A stretch of 64,000 nt of DNA from Fimbriimonadaceae bacterium (GTDB lineage Bacteria > Armatimonadota > Fimbriimonadia > Fimbriimonadales > Fimbriimonadaceae). Numbering within the stretch: the first letter of the stretch is position 1; every line of letters starts with the position of its first letter. Both the position numbers and the translations under genes were made by a program. The DNA is taken from NCBI GenBank assembly GCA_019638775.1, contig JAHBTD010000003.1, positions 186,001 to 250,000 of the forward strand, written 5' to 3'. This document shows positions 14,168 to 17,468 of this stretch, piece after piece. The notes beneath the pieces were generated by a model. That model was not told where the DNA came from and made no database searches. It saw nothing but the letters and a program-made list of their open reading frames with translations.

Positions 14168-14647
14168 TTAGTTGAACTGCTCGGCTGTTGCGGGGAGATC
14201 GCCCACGGCTATATCCACAATCCTCCAGTCGTTCTCTCCGTTGCGTCGAAGCGTTAGTACCAGCAGTGCGTTCTTGTAGGCACACTGCATCTCGGCCCTG
14301 TACTTAAAATCGACTTTGGTGCCTTCCCCAGGCTTTAGGGCGACGCTGACACGCTTTTGGGTGACGGAGCCATAGGTGCCGTTCCACTCGGCGAATTTTT
14401 GACCATTCTCGGGCGCGCTCCACGAGGATTGAACTGACGGATCAAGAGCAGACTGCAAGTTCTCAAAGTTCCAGTTAGTAAAGATGTCGGCCACGTACTT
14501 CGACCCGGCCTCTCGCGCCTCACGCATATATGCCGCGTTGTCTTTAAATCCGACGATCTTATCCTTGATTGTTTGATAATTGACGGCAACGATAAGGATA
14601 GCGCCGAGAATGAGCGACCAGAGGATTATGCGTTTGGCGAGGGACAT
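14168..14647 (-). CDS. Membrane-anchored small protein, tandem family member 1
   Basis: A 159-residue protein with an N-terminal transmembrane anchor (about residues 5-24) and a soluble domain. It is a distant member of the four-gene array 14168-16399. It shares the anchor, a YVADIFTNWNFENLQSALDP block matching the KIAQPWD...LLDP block of its neighbours, and an NDWRIVDIAVG ending matching their NWYFNTFRI ending. The helix-then-sheet layout resembles NTF2-like (DUF4878/DUF4440-type) domains; the fold is inference and the function unknown. Confidence 0.7.
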   Translation of the reverse strand: MSLAKRIILWSLILGAILIVAVNYQTIKDKIVGFKDNAAYMREAREAGSKYVADIFTNWNFENLQSALDPSVQSSWSAPENGQKFAEWNGTYGSVTQKRVSVALKPGEGTKVDFKYRAEMQCAYKNALLVLTLRRNGENDWRIVDIAVGDLPATAEQFN

Positions 14648-14728: not shown

Positions 14729-15223
14729 CTACAAGGAAGTCTCGCTGCTCCCGGTAGAGTCCAAAACCCTCAGATCGTAAATCGACCACTTGTCACCACG
14801 CTTGCGCAGAATCATGTTCATATGCGCAACCTTCTTTTGAAAGACAACACCCGCAGAATAAGCCACTTCAGTGTAGGTGCCTTCCTCGGTCGTCGATTTA
14901 AACCTGTAGGCCATGGTTGAGCCGGAGAAGGAAACGGCTGATCCATATTCCGAGTTGAGCTCTTCAACGATCGGTTGAATGGTTTCCAAGGTATAGCGAC
15001 CCTTGACCGATTCATCAAGCATGTCAAAAATTGCCTGTGCGCTCCAGGGTTGAGCGACTTTCCTAAGGATGGTGTCACCCTCGGCCTGTGCCTCCTGCAT
15101 GACCTTGCCGCCACGATTGGCCATGATATAGGCACCTCCACCAAAGATGGCGGCCACCCCGCAGCAGCCAAAGACAAGCACTCCGGCAATGATCCAAAGG
15201 ACTAGCGCATTCGATTTTTGCAT
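14729..15223 (-). CDS. Membrane-anchored small protein, tandem family member 2
   Basis: A 164-residue paralogue. The N-terminal anchor is ALVLWIIAGVLVFGCCGVAAIFGGGAYIM. It is followed by ILRKVAQPWSAQAIFDMLDESVKG, a Tyr/Ser-rich middle and the final KRGDKWSIYDLRVLDS. The domain faces the periplasm if the positive N-terminus stays inside. Spacing to the next family gene is about 90 bases, so these may be separate units rather than one tight operon. Confidence 0.75.
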   Translation of the reverse strand: MQKSNALVLWIIAGVLVFGCCGVAAIFGGGAYIMANRGGKVMQEAQAEGDTILRKVAQPWSAQAIFDMLDESVKGRYTLETIQPIVEELNSEYGSAVSFSGSTMAYRFKSTTEEGTYTEVAYSAGVVFQKKVAHMNMILRKRGDKWSIYDLRVLDSTGSSETSL

Positions 15224-15311: not shown

Positions 15312-15803
15312 TCACAGGCTGCCTTTCGTTGAGTTGGGCCCCATCACGCTAACCGATTCTAAGTACCAGTTACTGCCTCTCTTAGTCAAAATAAGCAGCA
15401 CTTGGGCTTGAGACTTCTCGAACAGAGCTTCGCCTATGTACTCCGCCTCAGAGAAAGAACCTCCGGCATCCAATAGATCGGTATAGCTATTGATATCCCC
15501 TTTAATCGAAACCAGCGCCCCAAACTCTTTTTCATAGGCGACAGCAATCTTTTGGGCTTTCTCAAGTACCATCGGATTCGCTGAGTAGGGGTCGGCCATT
15601 GACGCCATCTTCTGCGCATCCCAAGGTTTGGCAATCTTCATCATGATGTCGTTGCCAACGTTATATGCTGAGCTTACGGCAGAGCCTCGATTGTATAAGA
15701 CAAAACCAATGATTCCAATGAAGAGGCAAAACCCGAAGGCTAATGTTCCAACTATGACCCAAATTAGAGTATTATTTCTTGGCTTCACGATCAACTTCCG
15801 CAA
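15312..15803 (-). CDS. Membrane-anchored small protein, tandem family member 3
   Basis: A 163-residue paralogue, closest to member 2 in the anchor (NTLIWVIVGTLAFGFCLFIGIIGFVLYNRG) and to member 4 in the core. The conserved blocks are IMMKIAKPWDAQKMASMADP, FGALVSIKGDINSY, AEYIGEALFEK and TKRGSNWYLESVSVMGP. No catalytic residues can be assigned. Confidence 0.75.
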   Translation of the reverse strand: MRKLIVKPRNNTLIWVIVGTLAFGFCLFIGIIGFVLYNRGSAVSSAYNVGNDIMMKIAKPWDAQKMASMADPYSANPMVLEKAQKIAVAYEKEFGALVSIKGDINSYTDLLDAGGSFSEAEYIGEALFEKSQAQVLLILTKRGSNWYLESVSVMGPNSTKGSL

Positions 15804-15940: not shown

Positions 15941-16399
15941 CTAAGAGCCAGGCGGATTAATCCTGAACGTGTTGAAGTACCAATTGCCATCGCGCTGAAT
16001 CAAAGTCATTCCAATCTTTACTCGTCCCTTTTCGAATTCGGCATCACCTATATACTGGGCGTCGATGTGGGGTCCGTTCATGTCGCTTAGTTTTGAAATG
16101 TCCTTGATCTCACCCTTTACCGACTTTAGAGAACCATAGGTCTTGTCCATAGAGGAGGCAAAGTTTACGCAACCCCCAAGTGCCCACGGTAGAGGAGTTT
16201 TGGGATCTAACAATGAGTACATTTGCAGTCCATCCCAGGGTTGAGCTATTTTGGTCAAAAGCTCATCACCAGCGTTGATCGCGGCTCGTTCTGTGGCGTA
16301 CTCCGGCAATACTAAAAAGCCAATGACACCGCTGATAATGCCAAGCCCAACTGCTATGCCGATACAAACTTGTACAACTGGAGACTTGCCCTGCGACAT
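15941..16399 (-). CDS. Membrane-anchored small protein, tandem family member 4
   Basis: A 152-residue paralogue. The anchor spans about residues 8-30, then come LLTKIAQPWDGLQMYSLLDP, TYGSLKSVKGEIKDISKL, AQYIGDAEFEKG and QRDGNWYFNTFRINPPGS. The block order is the same as in member 3, so the two are the most recent duplicates by eye. The gene lies 31 bases downstream of selD on the same strand. Confidence 0.75.
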   Translation of the reverse strand: MSQGKSPVVQVCIGIAVGLGIISGVIGFLVLPEYATERAAINAGDELLTKIAQPWDGLQMYSLLDPKTPLPWALGGCVNFASSMDKTYGSLKSVKGEIKDISKLSDMNGPHIDAQYIGDAEFEKGRVKIGMTLIQRDGNWYFNTFRINPPGS

Positions 16400-16429: not shown

Positions 16430-17422
16430 TTAGCGGATCGATATCGTTGGCTCTGAACTTCTTAAGACCTCTCCAATACAATCGTAACCTTCGATCGGAG
16501 TTTTGCTGAAGAGAGCAAGCCCTCCGCTGGTCTGAGGGTCGCAAACGAGAGCTCGCATCGTGTCGGAGATTTCCGCTTGAAAGTCCAAGGCTTTGCCAAT
16601 AAACTCTGCGTTCTTTCTTGCGCCGCCCGTCGTATGCCCCCGCTCGATCATGCCTATCACGCCAGGCAGGATCGGCAAGGACGCTGAATCAATCTGGATG
16701 TGAACGCTTGAGGCTCGTGCGATATTGTAGAGGTGTCCCGCAAGACCGAAGCCTGTGATATCTGTCGCGCAAGATACACCGGCGGCAGCACCCCTTTCGC
16801 TGGCGTCCTTGTTCAAGGTGGACATCCAGCGGATGGCTTCGTCAAGCTCTTCCTTTGTGCAGTCGTCGGACTTGGCGGCTGTTGTAACGACGCCCGTTCC
16901 AAGCGGTTTGCTTAAATAGATCTTGTCGCCTGGAGAAGCAGTGTCGTTCGTGAACATCTTTTTGGGGTCAACAAGCCCGGTTACGGCCATGCCAAACTTG
17001 GGTTGATCGTCTTCAACGCTGTGCCCACCCATGACAACCGCTCCGGCTTCCACAGTCTTCTCGAATGCGCCGAGAAGAATATCGGCCCATACTTCAGGTG
17101 GGGCGGCGGTGGGGTTGAAGCAAGCGATATTGAGCACCGTTAAGGGCTTGCCTCCCATGGCATAGATGTCGCTCAGGGCGTTCGCCGCCGCAATCGCTCC
17201 GTAGGAATAAGGGTCGTCAACGATGGGAGTAAAGAAGTCGACTGTCTGGACCAGAGCTTGATGTTCAGACAGCGCGAAGACACCCGCATCGTCCCGGGTT
17301 TCAAAACCCACGAGCAGGCCAGGGTGAGTCACGGATGGGAGTCGTCGGAGCACGTCCGACAGTTGGGTCGGGCCCAACTTACTCGCTCAACCGGCGCAAT
17401 TGACCATGTGCGTTAATCGCAT
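16430..17422 (-). CDS. selD: Selenide, water dikinase; probable selenoprotein with in-frame TGA
   Basis: Makes selenophosphate from selenide and ATP for selenocysteine and selenouridine synthesis. A start at the TTG at 17377 would lack the N-terminal catalytic segment. Reading upstream in frame through the TGA at 17387-17389 gives MRLTHMVNCAGUASK, the family active-site motif with Sec at the catalytic Cys position and Lys three residues later, as in C17/K20 of E. coli SelD. The rest is canonical: ETRDDAGV, VQTVDFFTPIVDDPYSYG, GGHSVEDDQPKFGMAVTG, DPQTSGGL. Total is 330 residues counting Sec. The ATG at 17422 has no Shine-Dalgarno; a short upstream ORF may supply ribosomes. No selA, selB or selC lies in the window. 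Confidence 0.9.
17361..17379 (-). promoter_or_regulatory. Candidate bacterial SECIS hairpin of selD
   Basis: Beginning 8 bases after the selD TGA, AGTTGGG-CCCGA-CCCAACT folds into a perfect 7-bp stem with a 5-base loop. The loop is about 15-19 bases from the TGA, at the near edge of what bacterial SECIS elements use. It is within the coding sequence, as expected for bacteria. Confidence 0.6.
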
Positions 17423-17432
17423 CGGGTTGAGT

Positions 17433-17468
17433 TTACTGCTTAATCGGAGTGTCGGGCTTGTAAGACAT
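17433..17468 (-). CDS. Mini-ORF upstream of selD, 11 codons
   Basis: ATG at 17468 reads MSYKPDTPIKQ and stops 10 bases before the selD ATG, in another frame. A GGGAGA lies about 10 bases before its ATG, while selD itself has none, so selD could be reached by reinitiation. It could also be chance. Confidence 0.3.
   Translation of the reverse strand: MSYKPDTPIKQ

Follow-up and report, generated by a model that had tools for sequence, protein, structure and literature searches.

A minus-strand gene of a Fimbriimonadaceae bacterium almost certainly encodes a selenophosphate synthetase (selenide, water dikinase; SelD) with a catalytic selenocysteine (Sec), the in-frame UGA being decoded via SelB and a stem-loop at 17360-17344. 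The gene lies in a window of 64,000 nt, i.e., the whole stretch of DNA that we analysed (assembly GCA_019638775.1, contig JAHBTD010000003.1, positions 186,001-250,000 of the forward strand). At the level of the sequence, our analysis shows the protein family, the codon, its conservation, the Sec machinery and a covarying hairpin; the features are collected in Table 1.

Table 1. Features of selD, its neighbours and related loci (window positions; loci prefixed G000 are given by contig and position in the genome)
Feature	Position	Strand	Remarks
selD, selenide, water dikinase (selenophosphate synthetase)	16430..17422	(-)	330 aa, Sec at residue 12
In-frame TGA, putative selenocysteine codon 12	17387..17389	(-)	translation, relatives, 3u0o alignment
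ATG start codon	17420..17422	(-)	SelD homology from residue 1-2; -10 box position in relatives
TAAACT, TANNNT-type -10 element	17430..17435	(-)	7 nt before ATG
First hairpin, AGTTGGG-CCCGA-CCCAACT	17361..17379	(-)	7 bp, 5-nt loop; folding
Predicted bSECIS apical stem-loop, GTCGGA-CGTGC-TCCGAC	17344..17360	(-)	6 bp; model fit, covariation, synonymous null
Four tandem small ORFs downstream of selD	15941-16399, 15312-15803, 14729-15223, 14168-14647	(-)	
TlpA/AhpC-TSA-like, FWUGPC (L149)	G000 C1:1200579-1200989		TGA at first Cys of redox motif
TlpA/AhpC-TSA-like, HWUGPC (L151)	G000 C1:696224-696586, also C1:696278	(-)	TGA at first Cys of redox motif
TlpA/AhpC-TSA-like, SWUGC (L156)	G000 C1:1241391-1241741		TGA at first Cys of redox motif
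selA	G000 C2:1051755		
selB	G000 C4:182358		
tRNA-Sec	G000 C1:873986		
selD	G000 C3:202433		

The SelD reading frame, its relatives and the Sec machinery

The minus-strand frame from ATG 17422 to 16430 reads MRLTHMVNCAG-TGA-ASKLGPTQLSDVLRR... and contains only one TGA (17389-17387); re-reading the strand reproduced exactly the peptide MRLTHMVNCAGUASK, the frame and the TGA coordinates given by an earlier sequence-only reading of this DNA. We confirmed that 16430-17422 represents a full SelD if this TGA is read as selenocysteine. Aligning the extended protein to SelD, as that reading had proposed, gave a match of 364.8 bits to the TIGR00476 profile (cutoff 125) that covers nearly the whole model (positions 1-303 of 311). 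The Sec-frame protein also aligns over about 300 aa with the SelD of E. coli (3u0o, E = 2.7e-66) and with that of Aquifex (2yye). The former alignment places Sec12 on Cys17 and Lys15 on Lys20, so that the TGA does sit at the catalytic Cys position as had been claimed, and the U/CxxK motif in the N-terminal loop of SelD is present (U12, K15). Standard ORF finding starts the gene at TTG 17377 and returns 315 aa, losing the first 15 residues and the Sec residue with them, just as had been foreseen for a start at this codon. Downstream of selD, the four tandem small ORFs encode proteins of 152-164 aa that look like tandem paralogues and have a single hydrophobic segment each, near the N terminus; the three of them that were searched have no match in Pfam or NCBIfam.

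A survey of 61 genomes belonging to the same family and order gave 35 selD genes. Among named relatives, the nearest one found is an Armatimonadetes MAG with 65% identity. The sequence-only reading had staked its claim on conservation of the TGA in close relatives, and the codon at the Sec site is indeed TGA in 32 of the 35 genes and TGC or TGT in the other three; the 11 residues upstream of it are likewise conserved. Furthermore, every one of the 34 genomes that have a substantial selD also has selA, and selA is absent from the remaining 27; one of these 27 is 74% complete and carries a fragment of selD at the end of a contig. In a maximum-likelihood tree with moderate supports, the Cys forms are nested within the Sec clade at two separate places, therefore, Sec probably changed to Cys in selD at least twice. 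The three Cys genes show that the SelD enzyme in this group can do without Sec.

The genome containing the window (4.3 Mb in 126 contigs, 99.9% complete) harbors the machinery that had been predicted to lie outside the window, namely, selA (TIGR00474, 490.9 bits) and selB (377.1 bits, with the winged helix PF09107), as well as a tRNA-Sec, anticodon TCA, that scores 70.8 bits (gathering score 47). PF12390, the SelA N-terminal domain, has no match in the genome; as the full selA model was matched, we regard this as a false negative due to the shortness of the domain. The four loci selA, selB, tRNA-Sec and selD lie on four separate contigs and share no common operon.

Two hairpins after the UGA and the alternatives they bear on

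According to PMC13188914, the bSECIS model has a loop of 3-9 nt, a stem of 4-16 bp, a distance of 16-37 nt from the UGA, a G at loop position 1 or 2 and an MFE of at most -7.5 kcal/mol. The sequence-only reading had pointed to a hairpin of 7 bp with a 5-nt loop and had suggested a bSECIS search around it. That hairpin does exist, beginning at the 8th base past the TGA and spanning the gap up to the SECIS hairpin, but alone it falls outside the model, because its loop (CCCGA) lies 14 nt after the UGA and the first two loop bases are C. The search instead found a fitting element in the adjacent second hairpin, 17360-17344, which agrees with the model in loop (CGUGC), stem, spacing (32 nt after the UGA) and MFE (-8.1 kcal/mol, counting one further basal pair), and which is probably the SelB-binding site.

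When the protein was kept and synonymous codons were resampled, the 50 nt after the TGA showed RNA structure above this synonymous null in the relatives; together with the conserved TGA, this places the observation as a whole above chance. The second hairpin reached p<0.05 in 28 of the 32 Sec genes (mean z -2.79), which are related and hence do not amount to 32 independent tests, and in none of the 3 Cys genes (mean z -0.30). This contrast between Sec and Cys genes is more informative than the count itself, though there are three Cys genes behind it. The signal of the first hairpin is weaker (8 of 32 Sec genes with p<0.05, mean z -1.24). Across both helices, 90% of the cells are paired in the 32 Sec genes, with 28 two-sided changes versus 11.7 in shuffles and a covariation score of 0.224 versus 0.104 in shuffled alignments, which no slid register comes near. 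The two-sided swaps (G-C, C-G, U-A) fall mostly in helix 2; the first hairpin has 91% of its cells paired and two pairs with two-sided changes. One subgroup of relatives retains the hairpin in a register shifted by one base, and the energies vary among genes, the perfect-stem energy of the SECIS hairpin being only -4.8 kcal/mol in one Sec relative (L040).

These data bear on how else the TGA might be explained. It could be a true stop or a sequencing or assembly error, the gene then lacking the catalytic residue and starting at TTG 17377, where a standard 315-aa ORF is indeed available, or being a pseudogene. We consider this extremely unlikely, as the TGA recurs in separate genomes from related genera, 32 of 35, and the rest have Cys codons in its place; moreover, the residues upstream of it are conserved and a -10 box (next section) precedes the upstream start. 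It is also very improbable that the UGA is read through with a residue other than selenocysteine, by near-cognate readthrough or a recoded UGA. tRNAs other than tRNA-Sec are generally known to read UGA, but here selA, selB and a tRNA-Sec with the TCA anticodon are all present, relatives that deviate from TGA have TGC or TGT, and the hairpin is kept only alongside TGA.

If Sec is the inserted residue, the first hairpin rather than the second might be the SelB-binding SECIS, or both might be jointly needed. The first hairpin is nearer the UGA and also conserved, as its paired cells indicate; its loop position and first loop bases, however, lie outside the published model, and it exceeds the synonymous null only weakly (mean z -1.24, against -2.79 for the second hairpin). 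We therefore regard this arrangement as unlikely and favour the stem-loop 17360-17344 as the SelB-binding element.

Start site and proposed decoding of the UGA

A TANNNT box stands 6-9 nt before the start codon in 31 of the 35 selD genes, versus 2.0 expected from shuffles, and no Shine-Dalgarno-like motif was flagged upstream of the Sec selD genes. In L043 and L047, the two Cys-SelD genes from the same family as this genome, the adjacent -10 box and the SECIS hairpin have both been lost, and a Shine-Dalgarno-like motif is present instead. A -10 box adjoining the start codon is a known signature of leaderless genes (PMC12340547 and PMC3160421). As the box adjoins the upstream start, we favour ATG 17422 over TTG 17377, and we infer that the selD mRNA is leaderless from this ATG. 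A similar TANNNT box is found before some other genes of the window.

In the mechanism we propose, RNA polymerase would initiate at or near ATG 17422 using the -10 box immediately upstream, and the ribosome would meet the UGA at codon 12. SelB with Sec-tRNA-Sec would then bind the stem-loop 17360-17344, leading to selenocysteine instead of termination; from the sequence evidence, we infer both actual Sec insertion and SelD enzyme activity. The product of SelD would be selenophosphate, which SelA would use to convert Ser-tRNA-Sec into Sec-tRNA-Sec, thus, SelD would support its own production as well as the synthesis of at least three TlpA-like selenoproteins. Rather tentatively, we also raise the possibility that the UGA, 12 codons from the 5' end of a leaderless message, is served by a compound SECIS of two hairpins to which the first contributes. 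That contribution, part of the same joint reading and no less speculative, might be, e.g., to spacing or pausing. If so, Sec supply would be controlled at the very start of a leaderless message.

Other candidate selenoproteins and comparison with known systems

The sequence-only reading had expected other selenoproteins in this genome, whose selenoproteome we sampled by family searches only. Among the AhpC-TSA-family matches we found three TlpA-like genes with a TGA in the redox motif, which are probable selenoproteins judging from their codons and motifs. Among the matches listed, three relatives have a close homologue of the FWUGPC gene that also bears a TGA (67-73% identity), and TGA-bearing members of the family occur in at least 14 genomes, 12 with selA and two only 73-74% complete. 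A strict perfect-stem bSECIS search found an element in one of the three genes, which was not significant, and none in the other two. No Sec formate dehydrogenase appeared among the molybdopterin-enzyme matches listed for this genome, where the one match flagged with a TGA (C3:441270) has it in the C-terminal part, away from the Sec site. Searches of the thioredoxin and CMD families yielded no further UGA genes, and the UGSC family search gave no match, nor did its control.

The searched passages of selenium surveys make no mention of this Armatimonadota order, and we found no literature on selenocysteine in Fimbriimonas. Our results indicate a widespread use of selenocysteine across this order, whose SelD would be truncated, and whose TlpA-like selenoproteins would be split, by standard gene calls. 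Moreover, because the hairpin is lost in step with the switches from Sec to Cys, these genes give the SECIS element a clean natural control.

The SWUGC gene resembles the "UGC-containing TlpA" type listed in PMC13188914, and the Lys three residues past the Sec of SelD corresponds to the UxxK motif in Table 1 of that source. The second hairpin resembles the bSECIS model in lying within 16-37 nt of the UGA and in its small loop with G then U near the 5' side, but the extra conserved hairpin that separates it from the UGA sets the element apart. Unlike E. coli SelD (3u0o), which has Cys17, the protein has Sec at this site, and in its U-A-S-K the second active-site Cys of the E. coli motif (CGC) is replaced. 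The motif AGUASK or AGUAAK without a second Cys is common to the SelD of Chloroflexi, Zixiibacteriota and others, and a Cys at the third residue ahead of the Sec (CAGU) occurs in most of the SelD proteins here, as in Chloroflexi and Zixiibacteriota. The protein shares with the Sec-containing SelD/SPS2 family (TIGR00476) its full-length homology, a Sec codon at the catalytic position, an in-frame UGA followed by a stem-loop, and a genome with Sec machinery. This family ranks among the largest bacterial selenoprotein families known, which makes the selD described here, although well supported, ordinary in kind.
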